A stretch of DNA of 64,000 nt, taken from NCBI GenBank assembly GCA_025355505.1, contig JANXZM010000052.1, forward strand, positions 1 to 64,000. The letters are read 5' to 3'. This DNA comes from Acidobacteriaceae bacterium. GTDB lineage: Bacteria; Acidobacteriota; Terriglobia; Terriglobales; Acidobacteriaceae. Positions 27,102 through 40,977 of the stretch are shown here, piece after piece; position 1 is the stretch's first letter; every line of letters begins with the position of its first letter. Both the position numbers and the translations under genes were made by a program. The notes below the pieces were generated by a model. That model saw only the letters and a list, made by a program, of their open reading frames with translations, made no database searches and was not told where the DNA came from.

Positions 27102-28532
27102 ATGTCAACTGAACTGCGGAATTTTCTGGCGATCCCCTACGACGAACTGGAAGAGATGAATCTGGAAGCGAAGAAGCAGCGCCTGGACCGCGTGGCTCCT
27201 CACAAAGTTCAGGAGGAGCGGCTGAAGTATCTGGCGGCCGAATCGCGCATCAAGGCCGTGACCGTGATGTTCAGCGACCTGGAAGGACGTCTGCACATGC
27301 TGGACTATGACAAGAAATTCCTGCTGAACAGCTTCGACAACCTGACTTTTGACGGTTCGTCGATTCGCGGCTTCACGGCGCAGCGGGAAAGCGATCTGCG
27401 TTTAGGCATTGACTGGGCTGCCTTCTACTGGGGACCGGCGGATGTGTTCGGGCCCGGCAAGGTGATGGTGTTCGGCGAAGTGATCGACAAGGGCGGCGAG
27501 CCTTACTCGGCCGACATGCGCGGCGTCCTCAAGACTTTTGCCGCGGGTCTGCACAAGAAGCACGGATACACTTTGAACGCGGCCAATGAGATTGAAGGCT
27601 TCCTGTTTCAGGGTTCGGACGCCGAGCGCACTTACCACGAAACTGGCAAGTTCGAATACGTGAACACGGGCGGCTATTACCATTCGTTGCCGGGCGATCC
27701 GCTGCGCAATTTCATCGATACGACCGCGGAAGTGCAGCGCTCGATGGGATTCCAGAATGAAAAAGATCACCCGGAAGTTGCTCCGTCGCAGTTCGAGATC
27801 AACTACAGCTATGCGGAAGTGGTGGCTGCGGCTGACCAGATCCAGCTTTATAAGCTGATCTGCCGTCAGGTCGCGCGCAACCTTGGACTGACTGCGTCAT
27901 TCCTGCCCAAGCCGGTTGTCGGCGTCAACGGCAGCGGCATGCACACCAATGTTTCGATCAGCAAGGGCGGTAAGAATCTGTTCTGGGATCCGAAGGGCGA
28001 AGAAAAGCTGAGCAAGCCGGGATGGGAGTTCGTGGACCGCATTCTGACCCACGGCAACGACATCTGCCTGCTGCTGAATCCGAGTGTTAACGCGTATCGC
28101 CGTCTGGATCCCCACTTCGAAGCGCCGAACCAGATCAAGGCGTCGGCGGTCGATCGCGGCTCGATGGTCCGTATCCCGATCGGCAACGAGCGCAGCATGC
28201 GCGTGGAAGTGCGCTCGGTGGCTCCAGACGCGAATCCGTATCTGGTCATGCTCTCGATCTTCAAGGCGGGACTTGAGGGCAACACGGCGAAGATCAAGAA
28301 CCTGCGTCAGGCGGAACGGTATCTTCCGGACAACATATACGCCGCACTCGATAACTTCCGGAAAGCCGACTGGACGTCGGAGTTGCTGGGCAAGGACGTG
28401 AAAGCGCGTTACGCCGACCTGAAGCAGGCCTCGGCCGATCGCTGTCCGCGCCTCCTGGGCACGTACGTGAAAGCGCCCGAAGTGCAGTACCACCACGACG
28501 TCTATAACCAGTATCTTTGGAACAAATTTTAG
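27102..28532 (+). CDS. glnA: Type I glutamine synthetase
   Basis: GlnA joins ammonia to glutamate. Key motifs are visible: TFDGSSIRGFTAQRESD, NEIEGFLF (metal ligands), PSQFEINYSYAEVVAAADQIQLYK, VVGVNGSGMHTNVSI, LNPSVNAYRRLDPHFEAPNQ and NERSMRVEVRSVAPDANPY. The length is 476 residues. The usual adenylylation-loop tyrosine motif (NLYDLPPEE) of the beta subtype is not seen near the C-terminus, so control by adenylylation is doubtful. ATG 27102 has AAGGAGAGG. A GC-rich palindrome (28550-28575) follows. Confidence 0.95.
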   Translation: MSTELRNFLAIPYDELEEMNLEAKKQRLDRVAPHKVQEERLKYLAAESRIKAVTVMFSDLEGRLHMLDYDKKFLLNSFDNLTFDGSSIRGFTAQRESDLRLGIDWAAFYWGPADVFGPGKVMVFGEVIDKGGEPYSADMRGVLKTFAAGLHKKHGYTLNAANEIEGFLFQGSDAERTYHETGKFEYVNTGGYYHSLPGDPLRNFIDTTAEVQRSMGFQNEKDHPEVAPSQFEINYSYAEVVAAADQIQLYKLICRQVARNLGLTASFLPKPVVGVNGSGMHTNVSISKGGKNLFWDPKGEEKLSKPGWEFVDRILTHGNDICLLLNPSVNAYRRLDPHFEAPNQIKASAVDRGSMVRIPIGNERSMRVEVRSVAPDANPYLVMLSIFKAGLEGNTAKIKNLRQAERYLPDNIYAALDNFRKADWTSELLGKDVKARYADLKQASADRCPRLLGTYVKAPEVQYHHDVYNQYLWNKF

Positions 28533-28549
28533 TTGGTTCTGCTCGCGCA

Positions 28550-28575
28550 GGGACGGACGCCCTCGTCCGTCCGTC
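28550..28575. repeat. Dispersed palindrome after glnA
   Basis: GGGACGGACGCCCTCGTCC continues with GTCCGTCC. The arms are GGACGGAC and GTCCGTCC. It is a member of the GC-rich palindrome family and may end the glnA transcript. Confidence 0.65.
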
Positions 28576-28685
28576 CTCGCCGAGCGCAGCTCGGCCTCTT
28601 TTCCGCTCCGAAGGGATTAGTTCCTGTCATTACCCTTTCGGGGACTATGGCCCGCCGCTTCTACTTGCGATAATTGTTGTTTCCG

Positions 28686-30383
28686 ATGGAACTCAAACTC
28701 GTTGACGAGCGCTGGCTCCCCAAATCAGTTCTCTGCCTGCGCGATTACAGTCTGAATAAATTCCTGCGCGATTTGGTGGCTGGGATCACCGTAGGCCTGG
28801 TGGCTCTGCCGCTGGCTATGGCGTTTGCCATCGCATCAGGACTCACGCCGCAGGCTGGTATTTACTGCGCCGTGGTCACCGGCTTTTTGATTTCCGCGCT
28901 GGGCGGATCCTCAACCCAGATCGGTGGCCCGACCGGAGCCTTTGTGGTCGTCATTTCCGGTATTGTTGCCGCTCACGGTGTCGATGGCCTCTTCATGTGC
29001 ACCGTGATGGCCGGAATCATTCTCGTCATCATGGGCCTTACCGGCATGGGCGCCGCGGTGAAGTACATTCCACGGCCGATCGTTATCGGCTTTACCAATG
29101 GCATTGCCATCCTCATCGCCAGCACCCAGGTGAAGGATTTCTTCGGCCTTAAGCTGGAAAAAGTTCCCGGTGTGTTTTTCGCGCGCATCGAGGCGCTGGT
29201 ACTGAACTTTCATACTTTTTCGCTCGAAGCCACCGCGTTGGCCGTCGGCACAATCGTCATCATTGTTGTGTGCCGTGCGGTTTCCAATCGCGTCCCTGGC
29301 GCAATTGTGGCCTTGGTGCTGGGCACGCTCACGGTCTGGATTTTCAAACTGCCGGTCGCAACCATCGGTTCGCGCTTCAATGGAATTCCCAGCGGCATGC
29401 CGCATCTCCACATTCCCTTGTTTCGTTTTGATTTGATTCACGGACTTCTCGGACCGGCAATGACAGTTGCCATGCTGGGCGCGATCGAGTCGCTGATGTC
29501 GGCGGTAGTGTCGGATCGTATGAGCAATGATCGGCACAATCCGAATGTTGAACTGGTGGCGCAGGGCATCGCCAATGTGGTTTCGCCGATGTTTGGCGGC
29601 CTGCCGGCAACCGGTGCCATCGCTCGCACTGCGACCAACATCCGTGCGGGGGCAAAAACACCGGTTGCAGGCATAATTCACGCCCTGACCCTGTTGGCGA
29701 TTCTGCTTTTTGCTTCGAAGCTCGTGAGTTTCGTGCCCATGGCGGTGCTGGCGGGAATCCTGATGGTGGTGTCTTACAACATGGGTGAGTGGAGCGAGAT
29801 TCCGTCGCTGCTCAGGCTTACGAAAACCGACGTCAGCGTCTGGCTGGTTACGTTCGCGCTGACCGTCTTCGCCGATCTGACGGTTGCCGTGCAGGCGGGC
29901 ATGATCCTGGCGGCGCTGCTGTTCATCAGCCGCGTGGCTGCCACCACGACCGTTTCGCAGGTGACCGACGACTACGTTGAAGATGGGCGCGTGCACATTC
30001 TGCAGGATAAGGACATCCCGTATTACGCAACCATTTTTCGCATCCACGGGCCGTTTCTGTTCGGTGCGACCGACAAGATTGACGTGGTCACCGAGCATAT
30101 TCACAAGCTGCCACCAGTCGTGATTCTGCGGCTGCGAAATATGACCGCGCTAGATGCCACCGGACTCTTCGCGCTGGAAGAGGTCGCGCGGACTCTGAAG
30201 GCGAGCGGTCGCGCGTTGATTCTTTGTGGCGCGAGAGAACAGCCGTTGCAGCTCATCCAACAGACGGAGTTCGAGGAGTTGGTCGGTCCCGAAAACATTT
30301 GCGACAACGTGCAGGACGCTCTGCGCCGCGCCGAAGAAGCCTTTGAAAGGCTGCAACCCGCGGGGAAGCCGACGGCAAGGTAG
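28686..30383 (+). CDS. SulP-family anion transporter with STAS domain
   Basis: The protein has ten or more membrane helices. SulP signatures are AGITVGLVALPLAMAFAIASG, then GGSSTQIGGPTGAFVVV and the mid-protein FGGLPATGAIARTATNIRAGAKTP. A cytoplasmic STAS domain follows (about residues 440-560: YYATIFRIHGPFLFGATDKID, TALDATGLFALEEVA). Substrates of the family are sulfate, bicarbonate or other anions and are not predictable here. ATG 28686 is chosen over TTG 28674. It is monocistronic; a 164-bp repeat element follows. Confidence 0.9.
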   Translation: MELKLVDERWLPKSVLCLRDYSLNKFLRDLVAGITVGLVALPLAMAFAIASGLTPQAGIYCAVVTGFLISALGGSSTQIGGPTGAFVVVISGIVAAHGVDGLFMCTVMAGIILVIMGLTGMGAAVKYIPRPIVIGFTNGIAILIASTQVKDFFGLKLEKVPGVFFARIEALVLNFHTFSLEATALAVGTIVIIVVCRAVSNRVPGAIVALVLGTLTVWIFKLPVATIGSRFNGIPSGMPHLHIPLFRFDLIHGLLGPAMTVAMLGAIESLMSAVVSDRMSNDRHNPNVELVAQGIANVVSPMFGGLPATGAIARTATNIRAGAKTPVAGIIHALTLLAILLFASKLVSFVPMAVLAGILMVVSYNMGEWSEIPSLLRLTKTDVSVWLVTFALTVFADLTVAVQAGMILAALLFISRVAATTTVSQVTDDYVEDGRVHILQDKDIPYYATIFRIHGPFLFGATDKIDVVTEHIHKLPPVVILRLRNMTALDATGLFALEEVARTLKASGRALILCGAREQPLQLIQQTEFEELVGPENICDNVQDALRRAEEAFERLQPAGKPTAR

Positions 30384-30402
30384 GCCGCAAGTGTGTGGGA
30401 AG

Positions 30403-30566
30403 GGCACGACTTCAGAGGCTGCGGAAAAATGCAATTTGCCCAGGAAAAACGACCACCGGGGCTGAAGCCCGCAGTGATTTTAGGCGACTTACGTGGCCCT
30501 GAAGGGCCGCTCTTCCACAGTGATGTACAGATTCGTGACTTTTTCCGCAGCCTGTTCAGTCGTGCC
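30403..30566. repeat. 164-bp REPIN-like element after the SulP gene
   Basis: The left end GGCACGACTTCAGAGGCTGC continues GGAAAAA and is mirrored at the right end by TTTTTCCGCAGCCTGTTCAG...TCGTGCC. About 32 bp pair with few mismatches. Two smaller hairpins lie inside (GGGGCTGAAGCCC and GGCCCTGAAGGGCC). No gene is present in 30384-30626. Confidence 0.8.
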
Positions 30567-30626
30567 GTAAGTGCCGCTGAATGAAATACGGCTTCATCCG
30601 CTGAGGGCAGCTGGGGGCGCAGCCTT

Positions 30627-31712
30627 CTAATGCATCGCCGCCATATTCGTGAGGTTGGCATTCAGGTAGCGGCTCATCGCCAAGTCGACAATGGTGCCGA
30701 TCATTTCCGTGTAGGAGAGTCCCGATGCCTTTGCCGCCATGGCAAATTCCTGCCGGCTGGCCAGCCACGGATTCGGATTCGCTTCGATGACGTACACGTC
30801 GCCGTTGGGGGCCAGTCGCATGTCGATGCGCCCATAGTCGCGCAGCTTCAGTGCCCGGTACGCGGCCAGCGCTGTATCTCCCAGCCGCTTCATCGTATCC
30901 TCGTCCAGATTTTCCGCGACTTGCGATTTTGTCAGCTTGTAGGCTTCGGTGTTCTTCTCAAACTTCACATCGTAGCTGGCGATTTTTGGCGTGCCTTCGG
31001 GCAGGCGTGACAGGTCGAGCTCCACCATTGGCAAAACCTGCGACCGCTCGTAGCTGCCCAGAATCCCGGCGTAAATTTCGCGACCCTCGATGTATTCCTC
31101 AATCAGGGCCGGCGAGTCGAATTCATCCTGGATGTACTCGACGCGCTCCATCAACTCCTTGACGTTTTTGACGACAGCGCCGGCGTCGATGCCGATCGAT
31201 CCATCCTCCCACGACGGTTTGACGATCAGCGGAAAAGAAATGTCGTGGGCATGTTCAATGCGTCCGCGGTAGGAGGTCGCAAAGAACGGAGTTTTGATGC
31301 CGTGAAAGGCGAAGATTTTCTTGGCAATCGCTTTGTCCTGGGCGAGAAAAATGGCATGCGGACCCGCGCCGGTATAGCGTAATCCCAGCAAGTCGACATA
31401 CGCGACCACGTTCATTTCCTTGGTGTCGTCGCCGTCGAAAGACTCGGTCAGGTTAAAAATGAGGTCGGCATCGCAACGCGAGAGCGAGTGCAGCGACTGT
31501 GGGCGCCCATCCAGCTCGAAATACGAAGGCTCGTGCCCCAACTTTTGCAGCGCTTCGAAAATTTCCTCGCGATCGGTCTTCTCTTTTTTTACCTTCTTTA
31601 CTTTCTTGCGAGGCTTCCGCGCAGGAACCGCCTCTTCCTTTGCCGCCGCCGCGACCGGATCCTCGTTCCACACGTCGTACAGCAGCGCGATCTTCAGTTT
31701 TGCTCCGATCAT
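30627..31712 (-). CDS. ATP-grasp ligase, D-Ala-D-Ala ligase-like
   Basis: The central and C-terminal ATP-grasp parts are clear: IFLAQDKAIAKKIFAFHGIKTPFFA, PLIVKPSWEDGSIGID, PALIEEYIEGREIYAGILG, and YGRIDMRLAPNGDVYVIEANPNPWLA with the metal ligands. A Lys-rich insert (KPRKKVKKVKKEK) sits near residue 40. The peptide made is unknown, and a peptidoglycan role is not required. ATG 31712 has GAGGAGAG. It is 36 nt downstream of the zinc peptidase gene and probably co-transcribed. Confidence 0.88.
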   Translation of the reverse strand: MIGAKLKIALLYDVWNEDPVAAAAKEEAVPARKPRKKVKKVKKEKTDREEIFEALQKLGHEPSYFELDGRPQSLHSLSRCDADLIFNLTESFDGDDTKEMNVVAYVDLLGLRYTGAGPHAIFLAQDKAIAKKIFAFHGIKTPFFATSYRGRIEHAHDISFPLIVKPSWEDGSIGIDAGAVVKNVKELMERVEYIQDEFDSPALIEEYIEGREIYAGILGSYERSQVLPMVELDLSRLPEGTPKIASYDVKFEKNTEAYKLTKSQVAENLDEDTMKRLGDTALAAYRALKLRDYGRIDMRLAPNGDVYVIEANPNPWLASRQEFAMAAKASGLSYTEMIGTIVDLAMSRYLNANLTNMAAMH

Positions 31713-31748
31713 TAGTCTCTCCTCGGAAACCAAAAGCCAAAAGCTTTT

Positions 31749-32804
31749 TTACGGCTGAATGAACTTTCCTTTCGTCACGTAGGTCATCACCAGTGCGGTG
31801 GCATAGGCGGTAACTTCCGCCAGATGTTCCGCGCTGCGTGTTTTGTCGGCGCGCAAGTCGAGTTCACCGGCGCGTTTTTCGATTGTGTCTATCAAAGTTT
31901 TGATCAGCGGACGTTGCGCGCCGGTCCACTGCGCAACTTTGTCGATCACCGCCTTGCGGTGCTGATGGAGAAATTCGTGCGCCGGCGCCGCCGTTTTCCG
32001 CCGCTTGGATACGGGAAAAATGTCGCGCAAATCCGTGTCCGGCGTGAGCTCGCTGACCGCAACTTCTTCCCGCGCCGCCTGCTGAAAGTGGTAGAAGTCC
32101 GCCACCGTAGTTTCCATTTCATCGACCGTGATGTCGGTCTGTCCGCGCCGTCGTACCGGGTCGCTTTTCCCCAACTTGCGTGCCAGCCGGTTCAGGTAGA
32201 GCAGCTTCTCGATCGCGCCCCACCCGCGATACCGCTTACGCCAGTTCGAGCGCGGCGTCAGCCAAACCGCGAACGTTTCGGCAAAATCTTCATCCGGATG
32301 CTTCTGCGCATACCATCCCGGCAAGTGCCGCACATAGTCGCGGGAAAACGGCGCGGGCCGGTAGTTGTCGCGATACGGGCGGCGGAATGGCCCGAAGATC
32401 TGCTTCCACTCGGGCTTGATATGCAGCTTGTACGCATAGGTGAACGCGTGTCCCGCTTCATGCCGCAGGTACATCATGATTTCTCTCGCGTCTTCCAGGT
32501 CGTGCGTTTCTTTTTCCAGTTGCGCCAGCGCCGCATTCGCCAGATAAAACGGAATCCCGATGATCGGCTCGCCGGACGGACAGCCCCACTCGTCCGTCAA
32601 ATAACAGGCCGGACGAAATTTAGTCAGCCCCTTCGCCTCCAGCTCACGATAGAGCTGTTCGACAAAGCGCTCCACCGGTGACCCTGCAAGCGTAAGTCCC
32701 AGCTCGCGAATCGGCCGACTCAGAAGTTCCTGGTACGCGGGTTCAGGTTTAGCAATATCGTGCACAAACGCTCGCTCACAAAGAGTCTGCAACCGCGCGG
32801 GCAC
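31749..32804 (-). CDS. Putative zinc metallopeptidase
   Basis: The 351-residue protein has the metal motif YLRHEAGHAFTYAYKL (HEAGH near residue 114) and a downstream HPDEDFAETFAVWLTPR that can give the third ligand. No signal peptide is seen, so it is cytosolic. It is followed by the ATP-grasp ligase on the same strand. The pairing of a ligase with a peptidase suggests synthesis or processing of a small peptide or peptide-tagged molecule; this is inference only. Confidence 0.75.
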   Translation of the reverse strand: MPARLQTLCERAFVHDIAKPEPAYQELLSRPIRELGLTLAGSPVERFVEQLYRELEAKGLTKFRPACYLTDEWGCPSGEPIIGIPFYLANAALAQLEKETHDLEDAREIMMYLRHEAGHAFTYAYKLHIKPEWKQIFGPFRRPYRDNYRPAPFSRDYVRHLPGWYAQKHPDEDFAETFAVWLTPRSNWRKRYRGWGAIEKLLYLNRLARKLGKSDPVRRRGQTDITVDEMETTVADFYHFQQAAREEVAVSELTPDTDLRDIFPVSKRRKTAAPAHEFLHQHRKAVIDKVAQWTGAQRPLIKTLIDTIEKRAGELDLRADKTRSAEHLAEVTAYATALVMTYVTKGKFIQP

Positions 32805-32920
32805 ACACGGGGGGAGGCAGTATCACTATCGTGAACAGTAATGGAAAGCGGGTCGATTGGGGAGTGACTGCGGTAATGCGGGGTGGCGCGCTGTCTTGAC
32901 CGGTCGGTTACGGTGATTCA

Positions 32921-33385
32921 TCAATTTGTGGGAAACCTCAAACTGACTTTCCCGCTTTTGCTGATGCTCGCAATAAACGGCGGATCGTACCGGCGACAGA
33001 ATCGCGCCATCTCTCGCAGCGCGACAGCCAGCATGGCGGCCATCTCAGCCCCGCTGTAGTTCCCAGACGCAAAATAGAACTCCCTTATTCGGTATCGCTG
33101 GATTGCGGATTTTTCCAATTCATTGAACCGGATTCTCTTGTCTTTTGTGAGAAGTATCCAGCCGCGCTTGCCAACGAACGGAAGCCACGCGGTATCTTCC
33201 ACTCCTTGCGCGAAGTGGTTCCCGTGGCGCTCGTGCTTCACCCCATGCTGGGTGAGAGCGTCGAGAATGGGTTTGCAGTTGTGAAGATTTTCGTCAAGGT
33301 AGAGAACGAAGTCTTCAGGCAGCGACGGCTGCCGTGCGCTGCTCCCACCGGATCGCTTCTTCGATCTGTTTTGGCGAGACGCCAT
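32921..33385 (-). CDS. PIN-like (VapC45/DUF5615-type) toxin candidate
   Basis: The core reads VLYLDENLHNCKPILDALTQHG (acidic DEN motif at about residues 30-32), then AWLPFVGKRGWILLTKDKRIRFNELE. This is the PIN-like fold of DUF5615/VapC45 toxins, which are RNases. It overlaps the end of the DUF433 gene by 71 nt. DUF433 antitoxins are the standard partners of this toxin family. The long Ser/Arg-rich N-terminus may not be translated; a later start cannot be excluded. Confidence 0.78.
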   Translation of the reverse strand: MASRQNRSKKRSGGSSARQPSLPEDFVLYLDENLHNCKPILDALTQHGVKHERHGNHFAQGVEDTAWLPFVGKRGWILLTKDKRIRFNELEKSAIQRYRIREFYFASGNYSGAEMAAMLAVALREMARFCRRYDPPFIASISKSGKVSLRFPTN

Positions 33386-33992
33386 ATTCGGAAGCCAGGT
33401 CGGGCACGGATTCCCGGGCGTTGAACCGGGAAGAAACGACCGCAGTCGAGATGCCGGTACCGGCGATCACAGGCTTGCCGAAACCCACCGCCGGATTGAT
33501 CAGGATCAGCCTGGGTTCGTTCGCTGTTCGCTCCATGACAAATGGGTAAAGCTTGAAGAGACCTTTGGGATCGCGTTCGATGCGTTCCAGGTAAAGTTCC
33601 ATTACGCCGGGGATCAGGATCTGTTCATCTTTCGACAGATTCACAACCTTTCCAACGTGCTCAATGAACAAGTCGCGGCGATCGGTCTGGAAAGCCTGTT
33701 CCACGAGGGGGTGACGATGCTGAACGTACTTCGCCAGAGTGGCGAGCGACTTTCGCACTTTGGGAATGCGCACGTCGTAGATGGCGCGCATGCTGCTCAA
33801 CATGTAGCACTCGAGCAGGTTCATAAACGACAAGCGAGAAGGCTCGCTGCCGGCCAGGCGAATGAGTGCGGGGACAGGTCCACCCCCGTGAACCCAATAC
33901 CGAAGAGTGTTAAGCGGCACCCGGAGGTATTGGGCCGCTTCTGTGATCCCGTAGACCGGGGTTTCCATCAACCTGTCGCATGCTGGTTTCAT
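33315..33992 (-). CDS. DUF433-domain antitoxin with N-terminal HTH
   Basis: Residues 12-50 form a MerR/excisionase-like helix-turn-helix (VYGITEAAQYLRVPLNTLRYWVHGG). The C-terminal 55 residues are DUF433: PAVGFGKPVIAGTGISTAVVSSRFNARESVPDLASEYGVSPKQIEEAIRWE. This is the antitoxin form that pairs with PIN-like toxins. The ATG at 33992 overlaps the ATPase stop (ATGA), and the toxin gene overlaps its 3' end. Translation of all three genes is therefore likely coupled. Confidence 0.85.
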   Translation of the reverse strand: MKPACDRLMETPVYGITEAAQYLRVPLNTLRYWVHGGGPVPALIRLAGSEPSRLSFMNLLECYMLSSMRAIYDVRIPKVRKSLATLAKYVQHRHPLVEQAFQTDRRDLFIEHVGKVVNLSKDEQILIPGVMELYLERIERDPKGLFKLYPFVMERTANEPRLILINPAVGFGKPVIAGTGISTAVVSSRFNARESVPDLASEYGVSPKQIEEAIRWEQRTAAVAA

Positions 33993-35260
33993 TGCGTTTG
34001 CTCCTCCGTCTCCGAGCCGGAGCCGCCTATCAGTTCTTCGGTCTGAGTGTACGCCCTAATCCAAACGGCAAAAGAGCGGGAAGGAAGCTTGTAGGTTCCC
34101 TTGGTACCCGGTTTGGCAACCATGACGCCTCGGGACTTGAGGGCAGCGAGGGCATTGTCGAGTGTTGACGCTTTGATCGCCGTAGCTTCCTTTCGGATCA
34201 CTGCCTTCGTCACCCAATCGTCAAAGTGCCTTGCCATGACGCGCAGGACCTGGCGATATTCGTCTGAGCCGATTTGTTCGAAAAACTGCTTTTCGAAATA
34301 CTTCAATCCGAGCTGTTTGAGAGCCCCAGCTTCGCCGTAAGCGCCCTTCTGTACGTCCTCCACATCGATATTGTTGTCGTCATCCGCGTCAAAAGCGCAG
34401 TATGCAAACTGTTGAATAAAATGCGGGTACCCCTCCGTAATGAAAGACAGGCTCTCTTCCGCATCGGGTGTGATCGAGACGTCGAAACCGTTCTTTTTCT
34501 TTGCCGCTTCGAGTCCCCGTTGAATCGCTGTTGCGCAGTCCTTCATTGAAAGACGGTCCAGAGCAAAAATCTTGAATAGACGAAGTGAAGACTCGTGGCT
34601 TTTTCGGAGTCTCTCCTTCACAGCGGTGAGTCCGGCCAGACCGATGCAAACGCGGTCACAGCCACGGAGTTTCAGTCGCTCTGTGAGCAGTTTGACGAAG
34701 GTACCAAGATTGGCGGACACCGGGAGCTTGTCCGCTTCATCAATCAGAATCAAGACCCCGTCGACCTCAGAACCGAGATTCTTCAAGGATTCTGCGATTG
34801 CAAAGGACAGATCTTCCACCAATTCTGTGTCCCTAAGAACCTCCTTCGCCCCCTCGCGATATCGTATTCCCCCAAGCTCCCACTTCTTGATGAACTCCCA
34901 TGCGGACCGAGCGAACTCCTTCACCTGCGCTTTTGCAGAGATCTGTCGACTTAGTTCGGAGGCGATGCTCTGCACAATATCCGAGTAGGTATGACTTGGG
35001 CCGAGGCAAACACTTACTGTTATGAAGTTGAAATTCTGAGGGTTCTCAAGAGGCTTGACCTCGCCCTTCGCCGCCCATGTCAAGTTGAGAAGGAGCGAGG
35101 ACTTGCCGATCCCGCGTTCCCCGTCGATTAGGAAATGCGTTGGATTTCCGTGCTTCGTCTGGAACAGAGTCTTTTCTAGAGCAACGAGCTCATCGGATCT
35201 ACCAGCAAACATGCCTGGATGGACGATTTCGTTCGGACGAAATGGGTTGAACCGATACAA
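33989..35260 (-). CDS. AAA ATPase (Orc1/AAA_16-like) coupled to the DUF433-PIN pair
   Basis: The 423-residue protein has PFRPNEIVHPGMFAGRSDELVAL, then Walker A DGERGIGKSSLL (about residues 46-57), Walker B GVLILIDEADKLP, and a winged-helix C-terminus (WVTKAVIRKEATAIKASTLDNALAALKSRGVM). This is the P-loop layout of ATPases with a sensor for nucleic acid or peptide ligands (Orc1/Cdc6, STAND-like). It overlaps the antitoxin gene by 4 nt and is AT-richer than its surroundings. An ATPase is not a normal part of DUF433-PIN modules, so a three-part defence or partition function is possible. Confidence 0.82.
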   Translation of the reverse strand: MYRFNPFRPNEIVHPGMFAGRSDELVALEKTLFQTKHGNPTHFLIDGERGIGKSSLLLNLTWAAKGEVKPLENPQNFNFITVSVCLGPSHTYSDIVQSIASELSRQISAKAQVKEFARSAWEFIKKWELGGIRYREGAKEVLRDTELVEDLSFAIAESLKNLGSEVDGVLILIDEADKLPVSANLGTFVKLLTERLKLRGCDRVCIGLAGLTAVKERLRKSHESSLRLFKIFALDRLSMKDCATAIQRGLEAAKKKNGFDVSITPDAEESLSFITEGYPHFIQQFAYCAFDADDDNNIDVEDVQKGAYGEAGALKQLGLKYFEKQFFEQIGSDEYRQVLRVMARHFDDWVTKAVIRKEATAIKASTLDNALAALKSRGVMVAKPGTKGTYKLPSRSFAVWIRAYTQTEELIGGSGSETEEQTQ

Positions 35261-35311
35261 AACGACCCCGTCTCTACTGTATCAGCAGCCCACCCCCATT
35301 CGGCTCTTAGT

Positions 35312-35737
35312 CTATCCGCTGGCCGAGCCTGAGTACAGGCGCAGGGGCAGCACCGAGGCGTAGTTCTGGAAATCACGATCGGTGGTGAGAATGGTCCAGC
35401 CGCGGCGGTGGGCGGCGGCGCAGATCAGGAAATCGATGGCCGATCCCGCGATGCCCCGAGTGCGGCACCGATTGTTCATGTGGGCGGCTTCTTCGTAGTC
35501 CTCGGCTTCGAGTGGGTGCTCAGGGAAGGCCCGCAGGTAGTCGCGGAGTTTGCGAAACTGGGCTTCCTCGCGAATGCCGGAAAGCAGTTCCTGGCGGACT
35601 GGCCCCAGCAACTGCACGCGTCCCTCGCGAACCAACTCGGCCAGGGTTTCGGTGAGCTGTCGCTCCCTAGGGCTGAGTTGCTCGGGCTTGCGCCGCAGGG
35701 CCAGCGACCACACGGGCGTATCCACCAGCACCATCAT
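35312..35737 (-). CDS. vapC: VapC toxin, PIN-domain RNase
   Basis: A PIN domain with the four acidic residues: Asp6 (VLVDTPVWS), Glu49 (VRQELLSG), Asp101 (GSAIDFLICAAA) and Asp119 (ILTTDRDFQNYA). The length of 141 residues is normal. The ATG overlaps the VapB stop (ATGA). VapC toxins cut tRNA or rRNA. The gene is next to the ATPase-DUF433-PIN operon but is a separate pair. Confidence 0.9.
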   Translation of the reverse strand: MMVLVDTPVWSLALRRKPEQLSPRERQLTETLAELVREGRVQLLGPVRQELLSGIREEAQFRKLRDYLRAFPEHPLEAEDYEEAAHMNNRCRTRGIAGSAIDFLICAAAHRRGWTILTTDRDFQNYASVLPLRLYSGSASG

Positions 35738-35988
35738 GGACGGCGACGCGAACTTTTACGGGGAGCGCGACCGATATTCCGCTGCCGTTCGCTCTTGTAG
35801 TCGTAGGCGGGGTCAACTGAGTTAGAATCCGCCGGGAAAGTACCGAAGGCTTCCAGGATGCGCATCTGCTGACGCTTGCGGACGTATTCCTCCAGAGCGG
35901 CGGTGACCGCCTCCTTTTTGGACTTGTGACTTCCGGCGCGGCGGGCATCCTCGATGAGTTGGTCGTCCAATGCGAGGTTGGTTGCCAT
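35734..35988 (-). CDS. vapB: VapB-type antitoxin
   Basis: Started at ATG 35988, the 84-residue protein has a ribbon-helix-helix head: MATNLALDDQLIEDARRAGS, then KKEAVTAALEEYVRKRQQMRILE. The C-terminus is disordered and Arg-rich, for toxin binding. It overlaps vapC by 4 nt. A palindrome covers its start and serves as the probable operator. A longer start at 36006 is possible but falls inside the operator. Confidence 0.85.
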   Translation of the reverse strand: MATNLALDDQLIEDARRAGSHKSKKEAVTAALEEYVRKRQQMRILEAFGTFPADSNSVDPAYDYKSERQRNIGRAPRKSSRRRP

Positions 35989-36018
35989 GTGTAAATAATT
36001 ACACATCGTAATGTGTAA
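35987..36018 (-). promoter_or_regulatory. VapB operator, ATGTGTAA palindrome
   Basis: ATGTGTAA-ATAA-TTACACAT (35987-36006) is a perfect palindrome over the vapB start codon. A third ATGTGTAA half-site is at 36011-36018. This is the expected form of an autoregulatory site for a ribbon-helix-helix antitoxin. Confidence 0.7.
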
Positions 36019-36109
36019 GTAAAGCGCAAAATCGCTTGTGTGAAAACGAAACAGAGGTGTTCGCGGGTCGCGATAAGAGAATATCCGCGTAACCGTAGGC
36101 GAAGAGCTC

Positions 36110-36131
36110 GGGCGGACGAATGCGTCCGCCC
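36110..36131. repeat. Dispersed palindrome, GGGCGGAC-N-GTCCGCCC type
   Basis: GGGCGGACGAATGCGTCCGC continues CC. The arms match perfectly. It ends 10 nt before the duplicated gyrA tail. Confidence 0.7.
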
Positions 36132-36141
36132 CTACGCGAGC

Positions 36142-36390
36142 TTACTGAATCAGCGTCCCACTCCCATTCGGTTCTTCCGGCGGAATCACCACCACCGCCA
36201 CCCGGTCTCCCGGCTCAACGTTCAGTAGCCGCACGCCCTGCGCCGAGCGCCCGGATTCGCGGATGAACTTCGATTCGATGCGGACGATCTTGCCGTATTG
36301 GCTGATCAGCATCACCGCGGATTTCTCACTCACCTGCGAAATGCCGACGACTTTGCCGTTGCGTTCCGTGGTCTTGACGTTGATCACGCC
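36142..36390 (-). pseudogene. Duplicated 3' end of gyrA
   Basis: The 249-bp segment encodes the last ~82 residues of GyrA ([21 protein letters not shown] to the final NGSGTLIQ) and is about 95% identical to the end of the full gene at 38323. It has no gyrA upstream and begins abruptly; the shared sequence stops at 36390, where the full gene continues. Third-position differences show that some time has passed since duplication. It is not functional. Confidence 0.92.
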
Positions 36391-36422
36391 TTAGGCTGCG
36401 AGTTACTTTCTTGGGATATCAG

Positions 36423-36482
36423 TTGGGAGGTAACTCATCCAACCTTGATTCAAAAGGTCGAATGGATGGAAGTAACCTCCAA
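36423..36482. repeat. Imperfect inverted repeat beside the gyrA tail copy
   Basis: TTGGGAGGTAACTCATCCAA (36423-) is mirrored by ATGGATGGAAGTAACCTCC (to 36480). It lies between the duplicated gyrA tail and the lipoprotein gene, at the likely junction of a rearrangement. Confidence 0.45.
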
Positions 36483-36489
36483 GAGAGTG

Positions 36490-36513
36490 AGCGCGGACAA
36501 GAGTGTCCGCGCT
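36490..36513. repeat. Dispersed palindrome, GCGCGGACA-N-TGTCCGCGC type
   Basis: AGCGCGGACAAGAGTGTCCG continues CGCT. The palindrome is nearly perfect and is the reverse form of the 9846 copy. Confidence 0.75.
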
Positions 36514-36549
36514 ACACAATGGCGTGCGGGGTTTCCGGCGCCGAAGCAG

Positions 36550-37968
36550 TTACTGGCAACTTGTAAAACCCAAGGTTGCCGCGGTCAGGCTGTTGCCCGC
36601 GGTCACTGCGAGCGGAGCGTTCGTGCTGGTCTGGCTGGTTTGCAGGTCCGAGGGACTGCAATCGAGCGTACTGGCCGAGCCGGGGACAAACGCGACCGCG
36701 TCCACGGTGTAGTTGACCGCGCCGCTTGCGGGAGGCGCGGGTGTCTGGTTGCCGCTCGTGCTGAACGTCCCCACGCTCGGATTCGACGCGGGCACGGAAA
36801 GCGTGTAGCTGGCGCAATCGGTGTTCGCCGGACACGAACCGCCGGCGGCCGTGCTGAGGGTCGCGGTGGCGGCCGACTGTTGTGCCAGCGGCGTGATGAT
36901 GAGCACCGTGGCACTGTTCACCGTGATGGACTGAAGAGCGGAGAGCGACAGGTCGGCTGCGGTGCCTGCGCTGCCGGTGCTGGTTGTGATCTGACCGGTG
37001 ATGGAGGCCGGAGCCGCGGCGGCCGTCAGCGGAACGTGCCCCAGACTATTGCCGGCCTGCACGCCGGTGATCGCGGTGGCGGCATAGGCCGTGCCCGCGC
37101 CGTTGATCGCCGAGATCACGACGTCATACGTGCCGGAGGGCACCGGGCAGAAGACGAACTGGCCCGTTGCGTCCGGGACCGTTTCCATGATCACCCGGTC
37201 CACGCCGGTGCCGTCGTTCTGCTCCAGGGCCACCACGGTGTTTCCGCCCACGATGGCGGCTCCCGTGGCGCCGTCCACAACAATGCCCTGAATCGAAGCG
37301 GAAGTCAGACTGGCTTCGCCGCCGTGCAACACTGGTTTCAGCCGGTAGTGGCCGTTGCCTTGCACAACGATGGACGCGCAGGCATTGAAATCGATGTTCA
37401 AGTCTTTGGTATCGCCCGCTGCCACCTTGAATTGTCCACCCGCAATCTGGCCGGAAGGAATCTTGATGCCGGTCTGGGACTCAGACGAGAGTTGGAGGGC
37501 GTAGGGCGTGTTGCTGGGATCGCTGGTCAGCATCACGCAATTGGCGGCGACATCGCACTGGTTCCCTGCGACCGTGGTGCCATTGGCGGCAAGCAACACA
37601 CGAATCTGCTGGTATGTGCCCGGCTGAATTTCCGTGGCAGAACCTAACGTGGCCAGGAAGCACTGGTTGTTCGCCATTCCCAGCAGATCCACCTGTTTCG
37701 GATTGTTCTTCAGCGACGGCGTCAGGTCAACCCAGCCCGCATCGGTAGGCGCGGCATTCGCGCTCTGGTGGATCTCCACGTCGGTGATGGTCAGATAGAC
37801 ATGGCTGAACGGGCCTTGCGGCGCTCCACAGGTCGCCGGGTCGCTTACAGTCGTGCTGGCAGTTGCCATTTGGTTGGAGCTTGTACTGCTTCCGCCTCCG
37901 CAACCCGACACGACGAGGGCGGCAGCCAGGGACGCCAGGAAAAAGCAAACGTAAACGGCGCGACGCAT
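36550..37968 (-). CDS. DUF4382 lipoprotein
   Basis: A 472-residue exported protein with a lipobox (ALVVSGC, Cys23) and then the DUF4382 domain: GPFSHVYLTITDVEIHQSA, WVDLTPSLKNNPKQVDLL and GTYQQIRVLLAANG. A second part (about 240-320) reads IQGIVVDGATGAAIVGGNTVVALEQ and SGTYDVVISA, a carboxypeptidase-regulatory-like sandwich. The Ser/Thr/Ala-rich C-terminus has no clear fold. Such lipoproteins are common in Acidobacteria; function unknown. It lies between gyrA and the duplicated gyrA tail. Confidence 0.85.
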   Translation of the reverse strand: MRRAVYVCFFLASLAAALVVSGCGGGSSTSSNQMATASTTVSDPATCGAPQGPFSHVYLTITDVEIHQSANAAPTDAGWVDLTPSLKNNPKQVDLLGMANNQCFLATLGSATEIQPGTYQQIRVLLAANGTTVAGNQCDVAANCVMLTSDPSNTPYALQLSSESQTGIKIPSGQIAGGQFKVAAGDTKDLNIDFNACASIVVQGNGHYRLKPVLHGGEASLTSASIQGIVVDGATGAAIVGGNTVVALEQNDGTGVDRVIMETVPDATGQFVFCPVPSGTYDVVISAINGAGTAYAATAITGVQAGNSLGHVPLTAAAAPASITGQITTSTGSAGTAADLSLSALQSITVNSATVLIITPLAQQSAATATLSTAAGGSCPANTDCASYTLSVPASNPSVGTFSTSGNQTPAPPASGAVNYTVDAVAFVPGSASTLDCSPSDLQTSQTSTNAPLAVTAGNSLTAATLGFTSCQ

Positions 37969-38322
37969 GATATTTGGTCCTCCGGAATGGAAATCTCGAT
38001 TCTGTCAATCGAAGAAGAGCGATGGTTCTGTCGGACAATTGCGAGGGTTGCGATGGCAACGCGACGGACGCGCCCCACCATAGCCCCAAGCATAGAGATG
38101 CACGCGAGAGGCCGCAGGGCGCTACGTGAAATGGCTTGCTTATCAATGGATTACGGGTTGTAAAGAACCGCGGCAGTGAGCAGTTTTTACTCACTGGGAA
38201 CGTTTTTGCCGCGTGCGGCACCCTTTCGGGCACGCCGTGGATTACGCGAAACAGGCTGTCAGACGCCAGGTTTCGAGGTTTCGGTTTCCGGCCCGGGGCG
38301 GCCCGGCTTCCAAACAGCTAAT

Positions 38323-40977
38323 TTACTGAATCAGCGTCCCACTCCCATTCGGTTCTTCCGGCGGAATCACCACCGCCGCCGCGACCCGGTCTCCCGGTTC
38401 AACGTTCAGCAACCGGACACCCTGCGCCGAGCGCCCGGATTCGCGGATGAACTTTGATTCGATGCGGATGATCTTGCCGTATTGGCTGATCAGCATCACC
38501 TCGGATTTCTCACTCACCTGCGAAATGCCGACGACTTTGCCGTTGCGTTCCGTGGTCTTGACGTTGATCACGCCCTTGCCGCCGCGATTGGTGAGGCGAT
38601 ACTCGTCGGCGGGAGTGCGCTTTCCGTATCCGTTCTCGGTGACGGAAAGAATGAGCGAGCCTTTTTCCGGGATCAAGTCGGCAATCTCGGGAGCGATATT
38701 GCCTTCTTTCGCGATCGCCTTCGCCTCCGGCTTGATCGTGGTGGCCATCCCGACGATGTAATCTTTTTCGCCAAGATTCATGCCGCGCACGCCAGTCGCG
38801 TTGCGTCCCATGGAGCGCACGTCGTTCTCGTCGAAGCGTATCGCCTGCCCGTCATGCGAGGCGAGGAAGACGATCTGGTTGCCGTCTGTCAGCGAGGCTG
38901 CGACCAGTTCGTCACCCTGTTCGATATTGATGGCGATGATGCCACGCTGCATCACGTGCGAGAAGTCTTTCACCGCAGTTTTTTTCACCGTGCCATTGTG
39001 AGTCGCAAAGAAGACGTACCTGCCCTCTTCTTCCAGATCGCGGACGGCGAGCATGGTGCGCACCGTTTCGCCCGGCTGCAAACCCACCAGGTTCCCAACG
39101 TGCTTGCCCTTGCCGGCGGCGGCGATGTCGGGAATCTCATAGACCTTAAGCCAGTACACGCGTCCGGTGTTGGTGAAGATCAAGATAAAGGCATGGGTTG
39201 AGGCGATGAACAGATGCTCGACGAAATCCTCGTCGCGCGTCTTCATGCCGGTGCGCCCGGTCCCGCCGCGCCGCTGCATGCGGTAAGTCGAGATCGGAGT
39301 CCGCTTCATGTAGCCGGAGTGGCTGACCGTGACCGCAACTTGCTCGTCGGCGATCAGGTCTTCCAGCATGATTTCCGCAGCTTCGTCTTCGATGACGGTG
39401 CGGCGCGCGTCGCCGTAGAGCTTCTTGACCTCTTCCAGTTCCTTGATGATGACGTTGCGCAGCTTCTTCTCGGAGGCAAGAATCGATTCGAACTCGGCGA
39501 TGGCCTCGCGCACCTGCTTCAACTCATTCGAAATTTCATCGATCGAGAGCTTGGTCAAGCGATGCAGTTGCAGTTCGAGAATAGCGTCAGCCTGTTTCGC
39601 CGTGAACGGCCTGTCGGTTTCGATCTTTGGAGCGCGTCCGCTGGTGTTGATGTCAATTTTCTTGCCGCCGAAGTACGCGACCAAATTCTCTCTCGCGTCC
39701 CCGCGGTTCGCGCTGCCCCGGATGATGGCGATCACGTTGTCGAGGTGATCGAGCGCGGTCAGGTAGCCTTCCAAAATATGCTCGCGATCCTTCGCTTTGT
39801 TGAGCAAAAACGAAGTGCGGCGGCGCACCACATCCACGCGATGGTCGATGAAGTGTTTGATCGCCTGGATCAGCCCCATTTCCTTGGGCTGGCCGTTGAC
39901 CACGGCCAGCAAAATCATGCTGAAGCCTTCCTGCATCGAGGTGTGCTTGAAAAGCTGGTTCAGCACAATCTGCGGTTCGGCTCCGCGCTTGAGCTCGATC
40001 ACGATGCGCATCCCGTCGCGATCGCTTTCGTCGCGAATGTCGGAAATGTCGTCGATGGTCTTCTGATTGACCAGGTCGGCAATGCGCTCGATCAGGCGCG
40101 CCTTATTCACCTGATAGGGAATCTCGGTGACGATGATCGCCTGCTTTTCTTTGGTGACGTTCTCAATGGCGGCGCGCGCGCGCATCATGAAACGGCCGCG
40201 GCCGCTTGTGTAAGCCGCCTCAATGCCCGTTTTGCCGTGAATGATGCCGTAGGTTGGGAAGTCGGGACCTTTGACGATCTTCAGGATCTCCGGGAGCGAT
40301 GCTGCCGGATTATTCACCAGCATGATGGTGGCATCGACGATTTCCGTCAAATTGTGCGGCGGTATTTTCGTCGCCATGCCAACCGCAATTCCATCGGAGC
40401 CGTTGACCAGCAAGTTGGGATAACGCGCGGGAAGAACGGCGGGCTGCGTTTCCGTGCCATCGTAGTTCGGATAAAAGTCAACCGCTTCTTTGTCGAGATC
40501 TTCTAGCAGCGCGGTGGAGACGCGCGTCAACCGAGCTTCGGTGTAACGATCGGCTGCGGGCGGGTCGCCATCAACCGAGCCGAAGTTGCCTTGTCCATCG
40601 ACCAGCGGCGCGCGCATGGCAAACGGCTGCGCAAGTCTTACCAACGCGTCATACACCGCCAGGTTTCCGTGCGGATGGTACTTGCCCATCACTTCGCCGA
40701 CGATGCGAGCACACTTGCGCGTGGCGCGTCCCGGAGCCAATCCCATCTGCTGCATCGTGTAAAGAATGCGGCGATGCACAGGCTTCAATCCGTCGCGGAC
40801 ATCGGGCAGCGCGCGGCCGATAATCACCGACAACGAGTAGTCGAGGTACGACCGCTTCATCTCGTCTTCAATGTTGACGGGCAGCATGTTGAGGGCGCCT
40901 GGACCGCTTGGAGATTGTCCGTCGCCTTCAGGAGGAGGAGTTAAGGGAAGTTCAGGATTTTGGGGATCGTCAGCCAT
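38323..40977 (-). CDS. gyrA: DNA gyrase subunit A
   Basis: The 884-residue protein covers the whole subunit: [30 protein letters not shown], the active-site tyrosine in [14 protein letters not shown], and the C-terminal beta-pinwheel with the GyrA box [12 protein letters not shown] Pro-rich 30-residue N-terminal extension precedes the core. In the quinolone pocket it reads [13 protein letters not shown], so E. coli Asp82-Ser83 are Asn-Leu. Introduction of Leu at Ser83 is a classical quinolone-resistance change. The last 82 residues are duplicated at 36142. A TATAAT-like -10 box lies at 41143-41148. Confidence 0.97.

Follow-up and report, generated by a model that had tools for sequence, protein, structure and literature searches.

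Two gyrA haplotypes in tandem: displaced gyrA 3' ends in an Acidobacteriaceae genome are probably the product of homology-anchored illegitimate recombination

Genomic islands located at the 3' ends of genes keep their target gene intact and carry a fragment of its 3' end at the far side of the insert. For the type VI (T6SS) effector-immunity arrays of Vibrio cholerae, homology-facilitated illegitimate recombination has been proposed, in which the 3' end of the effector gene is shifted back (PMC5361080). For restriction-modification genes, insertion with long target duplication has been described (Nobusato et al. 2000, as cited in PMC3031569). Here we describe a locus from an Acidobacteriaceae genome (G000) in which a complete gyrA gene is followed by displaced copies of its own 3' end. 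It is located in a window of 64,000 nucleotides, by which we mean the whole stretch of DNA that was analysed.

The locus resembles the Vibrio arrays: a conserved upstream gene would anchor the incoming DNA, the old 3' end is pushed downstream together with its neighbor, and repetition builds an ordered array with stranded 3' ends (PMC5361080). However, the anchored gene in Vibrio is a variable toxin whose function changes, whereas in the window this role falls to gyrA, a housekeeping gene that remains functional and is followed by unrelated cargo (toxin-antitoxin modules and a lipoprotein). Orphaned 3' ends strung downstream of an intact gene are likewise a feature of the rhs/CDI C-terminal displacement loci as these are cited in PMC5361080; according to this citation the rhs/CDI tips are alternative toxin domains, whereas the tails in the window are near-identical alleles of the end of one essential protein. 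With the restriction-modification cases, as summarized in PMC3031569, the window shares small selfish-type genes between long variable direct repeats of host sequence as well as single-copy relatives. It differs from that summary in the 3' flanks of its two repeats, which are unlike each other and native to two separate relatives. In common with islands at gene 3' ends the window has an intact target and a far-side fragment, but it has no tyrosine integrase on the contig, no fixed core and only very small cargo. Nothing relevant was found when the literature was searched for integration at gyrA.

The features of the locus are listed below in the direction of transcription; relatives are referred to by genome numbers.

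38323..40977, minus strand: functional gyrA, complete, 884 aa (Pfam DNA_topoisoIV and six gyrA-C repeats)
37969..38322, minus strand: haplotype 1 sequence collinear with G010, comprising the gyrA 3' flank and the region upstream of the DUF4382 gene
36550..37968, minus strand: lipoprotein gene with DUF4382 and CarboxypepD_reg, 472 aa (PF14321, E = 2e-27)
36426..36513, minus strand: two hairpins downstream of the DUF4382 gene (folding z = -7)
36389..36401, minus strand: novel joint, GCAGCCTAAG passing into AAGGCGTGATC of gyrA
36142..36390, minus strand: displaced gyrA 3' end, 249 bp, decayed, direct repeat of 38323-38574
36007..36141, minus strand: 3' flank of the displaced 249-bp tail, a 95.5% match to the sequence that natively follows gyrA in G008
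35734-36006, minus strand: VapB (cassette 35312..36006, directly downstream of gyrA in G008 and G017)
35312-35737, minus strand: VapC PIN toxin of the same cassette
35274-35308, minus strand: second displaced gyrA 3' end beyond VapBC, about 34 bp, reading EPNGGGLLIQ* (35 bp with the same joint in G008)
32921..35260, minus strand: outer cargo of an AAA_16 ATPase, a DUF433/HTH protein and a PIN_10 protein
31749..32804, minus strand: conserved Peptidase_Mx-like neighbor closing the variable interval, 112 bp from gyrA in G004

The final 252 bp of gyrA are repeated at 36390..36142, with 240 of 249 positions identical, nine substitutions and one 3-bp deletion. This is the direct repeat of about 95% identity that the first-pass annotation had placed at 36142-36390, and the BLAST match (E = 8e-112) leaves its description standing. 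Exactly two copies were found in the genome; the spacing between 36142-36390 and 38323-38574 shifts from 2181 to 2184 across the deletion. The displaced tail consists of gyrA C-terminal sequence and ends at the gyrA stop codon. Compared with the functional gene, which is up to 95% identical to gyrA of relatives, it has five synonymous and three nonsynonymous codons and lacks one codon. The changes (E to A, I to V, A to V and the lost codon) all affect strongly conserved sites: among 146 other gyrA tails these sites hold E/Q in 143, I/L in 145, A in 140 and A in 134. None of the replacement residues was seen in the 146 tails, for which reason we read the 249-bp copy as a remnant that has been released from GyrA constraint for some time. 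Both tails of the window share derived bases at alignment sites 227 and 238, and they are closer to each other than either is to G008 or G010. To G008 the displaced tail shows 89.6% identity, which is no closer than the functional gyrA.

Between the repeats the first-pass annotation had noted a DUF4382 lipoprotein gene and nested inverted repeats. The gene assignment was confirmed by the PF14321 match, and a signal peptide and a lipobox-like VVSGC could be read from the sequence. The protein is 87% identical to its counterpart in G010, and the gene is present in 2 of 24 genus genomes (window and G010) and was not found in the remaining 22. Inverted repeats do exist, as the folding score indicates, but they form two separate hairpins at 36490-36513 and about 36426-36480 and are not nested. 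The former, AGCGCGGACA-NNNN-TGTCCGCGCT, belongs to a repeat that is dispersed throughout the genus, with 38 matches in this genome and as many as 42 in others of the genus; the latter is without a match in other genomes of the genus. Immediately past the displaced 249-bp tail, at about 36103-36135, there is a related hairpin. At the joint 36390/36391, GCAGCCTAAG, which is also found downstream of DUF4382 in G010, abuts AAGGCGTGATC of gyrA with about 3 bp in common (AAG). Searched against the genus, the 88 bp between DUF4382 and the 249-bp tail matched only the dispersed hairpin, apart from the match of GCAGCCTAAG to G010. A promoter and terminator scan was uninformative.

Comparison with relatives divides the locus into two halves. 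The left half (gyrA, flank, DUF4382) is collinear with G010 from 41153 down to 36479, and G010 has no duplicate. The right half (gyrA tail, flank, VapBC) is collinear with G008 from 36392 down to 35272, and G008 has neither the DUF4382 gene nor the 249-bp duplicate. Accordingly the flank past the functional gyrA matches the gyrA flank of G010, and the flank past the 249-bp copy matches that of G008 at 141/148 positions. DUF4382 is thus the normal downstream neighbor of one gyrA copy, as in G010, and VapBC that of the other, as in G008. Because both sides are ordinary gyrA neighborhoods and neither relative has this duplicate, we read the window as two gyrA haplotypes in tandem, whose structure is accounted for by the single new joint at 36390/36391.

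Third-position identity between the window and G008 was 76% for gyrA and 72% for the metallophosphatase gene upstream of it; for VapB it was 93%, for VapC 90% and for the next core genes 84%. Since identity to G008 is higher on the VapBC side, this side was probably exchanged more recently than gyrA. From VapBC through the next core genes (27102-36006, compared with L064) third-position identity to G008 was 79-93%, against 72-76% on the gyrA side, which suggests a recombination tract starting near the gyrA stop codon. With G010 as reference, the divergence of the DUF4382 gene is on a par with that of gyrA (72% against 74%), and the gene shows no excess similarity. As the 249-bp tail is no closer to G008 than the functional gyrA is, donor and recipient are assignable only with a conspecific genome or by assuming gene conversion. 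A G008-like import from the right into a native gyrA-DUF4382 arrangement is possible, but gene conversion or an unsampled donor would be needed to reconcile it with the tail.

The second gyrA tail at 35274-35308 had been missed in the first-pass annotation. Lying beyond VapBC, it is older than the 249-bp tail and probably the trace of an earlier event of the same kind. The 35-bp tail of G008 and its outer flank align to the gyrA end and native flank of G004 (score 112). G004 represents the empty site, with gyrA separated by only 112 bp from the Peptidase_Mx-like gene. Judged from these alignments, there appear to be no layers in G004, one in G008 and two in the window. The joint between VapBC and the short tail is identical in G008 and the window genome, whereas the tail alleles differ at 6 of 35 positions and the outer flanks and contexts differ as well; this points to reuse of the VapBC-tail unit or to later replacement of the outer part. 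The outer cargo (AAA_16, DUF433/HTH and PIN_10) is possibly a toxin-antitoxin or defence set. Only weak relatives of its AAA_16 ATPase occur within the genus.

Genus genomes differ in what lies between gyrA and the Peptidase_Mx-like gene. The interval is empty in G004 and holds VapBC in G008 and G017, a decayed VapBC in G009, an M48 peptidase in G003, DUF4382 plus M48 in G010, a pair of AAA_21 proteins in G022 and a DUF3800 protein in G012. In G011 and G001 it contains a methyltransferase-like gene, assigned by reading the sequence. From its gene content we regard the interval as a variable site at which each species takes different small gene blocks.

We scanned 147 loci of the family downstream of gyrA, 134 of which had more than 1 kb of sequence, and found displaced gyrA tails in 4 of these 134 (window genome, G008, G121 and G165); reverse-strand control scores were at most 35. 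G121 and G165 belong to another genus than the window genome. In G165 gyrA is followed by HigB-HigA and then by a decayed gyrA tail, the 3' flank of which differs from that of the functional gyrA. G121 carries HigA only, a 123-bp tail, SocA/Panacea-type cargo and then an 87-bp tail, with 111 bp of flank common to its two repeats. The 123-bp tail of G121 and the tail of G165 have the same inner end. HigB-HigA is intact in G165 (L281:452-1073), and its sister G121 retains HigA alone as an orphan antitoxin. All differences in the G121 tail are synonymous, which we considered as proof of an allelic origin and dropped, given that G165 shows the insertion to be old and that the G121 copies may be gene-converted. 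Overall the inner ends of the displaced tails are scattered (-252, -35, about -125 and -87), and the tails represent about four insertion events. In 68 gyrA loci drawn from Acidobacteriota and other phyla, the sole tail came from the record of G008 itself. In a control with 809 genes including gyrA, the non-gyrA matches inspected were tandem paralogues or a short cargo-free tandem repeat, and the others look low-complexity or paralogous. An enrichment of displaced tails at gyrA over other genes is suggestive only, because few cases underlie it and the window was picked for this feature. In a family relative (L180, gyrA-oriented, about 1138-2110) the 3' end of another gene (130 bp plus 66 bp of flank) is duplicated about 153 bp downstream without cargo, which looks like a simple tandem repeat.

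In our view the likely and best explanation of the locus is homology-anchored (homology-facilitated) illegitimate recombination in the variable interval that follows gyrA. DNA of one haplotype would have paired with the other haplotype via shared core genes serving as homology anchor, and the other end would have been joined inexactly, connecting the region downstream of DUF4382 to position -252 of the second gyrA. In this way the full-length gyrA would survive intact, while of the other gyrA a 249-bp tail would be left stranded as a scar; a prior event of the same kind would have stranded the 34-bp tail beyond VapBC. The sequence features that point to such a course are halves collinear with different relatives, differing flanks of the tails, varying inner ends, the decay of the tail and the analogues in another genus. 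One junction is homologous and the other is novel with about 3 shared bp, as homology-facilitated illegitimate recombination would leave them. We infer that the DNA was imported, e.g. by natural transformation; a ComEC homologue in the genome makes DNA uptake possible, although ComEC alone is no proof of competence. One point against this recombination is that the functional and the 249-bp tail have derived bases in common and resemble each other more than they resemble G008 or G010; it requires that the haplotypes both stem from close, unsampled relatives of the window lineage, or that gene conversion has acted. Another is that the 249-bp joint is known from one assembly. A further one is the identical VapBC-tail joint in G008 and G000, which is unpredicted by one random joint per event without later exchange. 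That joint, with its different alleles and outer flanks in the two genomes, fits the more tentative and rather unlikely idea that the gyrA end is a portable homology arm: small blocks, often toxin-antitoxin modules, which bring no recombinase themselves, would spread with an acquired tail between species of the family by ordinary homologous recombination at gyrA.

The first-pass annotation had proposed integration of DNA carrying a partial gyrA or a tandem duplication with loss. The former comes close to the recombination preferred here, with one inexact joint and two gyrA-bearing haplotypes, except that DUF4382 is not a plain insert. It had further proposed to test whether DUF4382 is absent where the duplicate is absent; the outcome is mixed, since 22 of the 24 genus genomes lack both, but G010 has DUF4382 without the duplicate. 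The same two-copy arrangement in distant relatives, taken there as a sign of old age, was not found for this pair; the other genus does have an analogue, which involves other cargo. A tandem duplication of the gyrA segment followed by partial loss could explain the derived bases common to both tails and why each finds its closest match in the other. It is nevertheless very improbable, as the copies have non-homologous 3' flanks and sit in two different ancestral contexts, each unduplicated in another species.

If the gyrA 3' end were an attachment site for small elements, with an integrase acting in trans or since lost, each insertion would leave a displaced gyrA end. The repeats do terminate at the gyrA 3' end like those of classical 3'-end attachment sites, integrases are present elsewhere in the genome, G008 and G000 have the same VapBC joint although tail alleles and outer flanks differ between them, and G121 and G165 share a HigBA joint. 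Against this stand the four inner ends, hence no common core, and cargo without a tail in G010 and G017. In addition, a search confined to tyrosine integrases (Phage_integrase) had no match on the whole 105.7-kb contig, and no tyrosine integrase is evident among the cargo ORFs. We regard such a site as improbable. Selfish cargo that inserts and duplicates a long target, as for restriction-modification genes, would account for variable-length direct repeats around small toxin-antitoxin-type cargo (VapBC, HigBA) with a single copy in relatives, and for the 111 bp of flank shared in G121. The 3' flanks of the copies differ, however, in the window (one matching G010, the other G008) and in G165, and are not those of one target site; moreover DUF4382 is neither a toxin-antitoxin nor a restriction-modification gene, and gyrA-DUF4382 occurs in G010 without a repeat. 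Target duplication is thus quite doubtful. Finally, a chimeric contig assembled from two strains in a metagenome would be expected to look like a single novel joint between haplotypes, the 249-bp duplicate occurs in this genome only, and most relatives are metagenome assemblies. Yet about 3 bp in common at the joint are too short for a k-mer join, the window contains no N, the 249-bp tail has changes never found in live gyrA alleles, and equivalent tails are present in the assemblies G008, G121 and G165. Since the tail is decayed, the overlap very short and the window free of N, we give hardly any credence to a chimera of two living strains.

Stranded gyrA tails can be misannotated as additional gyrA copies. 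Under homology-anchored recombination, new genes would have been added beside the essential gyrA several times without harm to gyrA. The locus would then be a layered, readable record of how an essential gene gains neighbors without help from a mobile element, its empty, one-step and two-step stages being represented in different species. If it is true that the tails act as homology arms, this may be a simple route for the spread of toxin-antitoxin genes.
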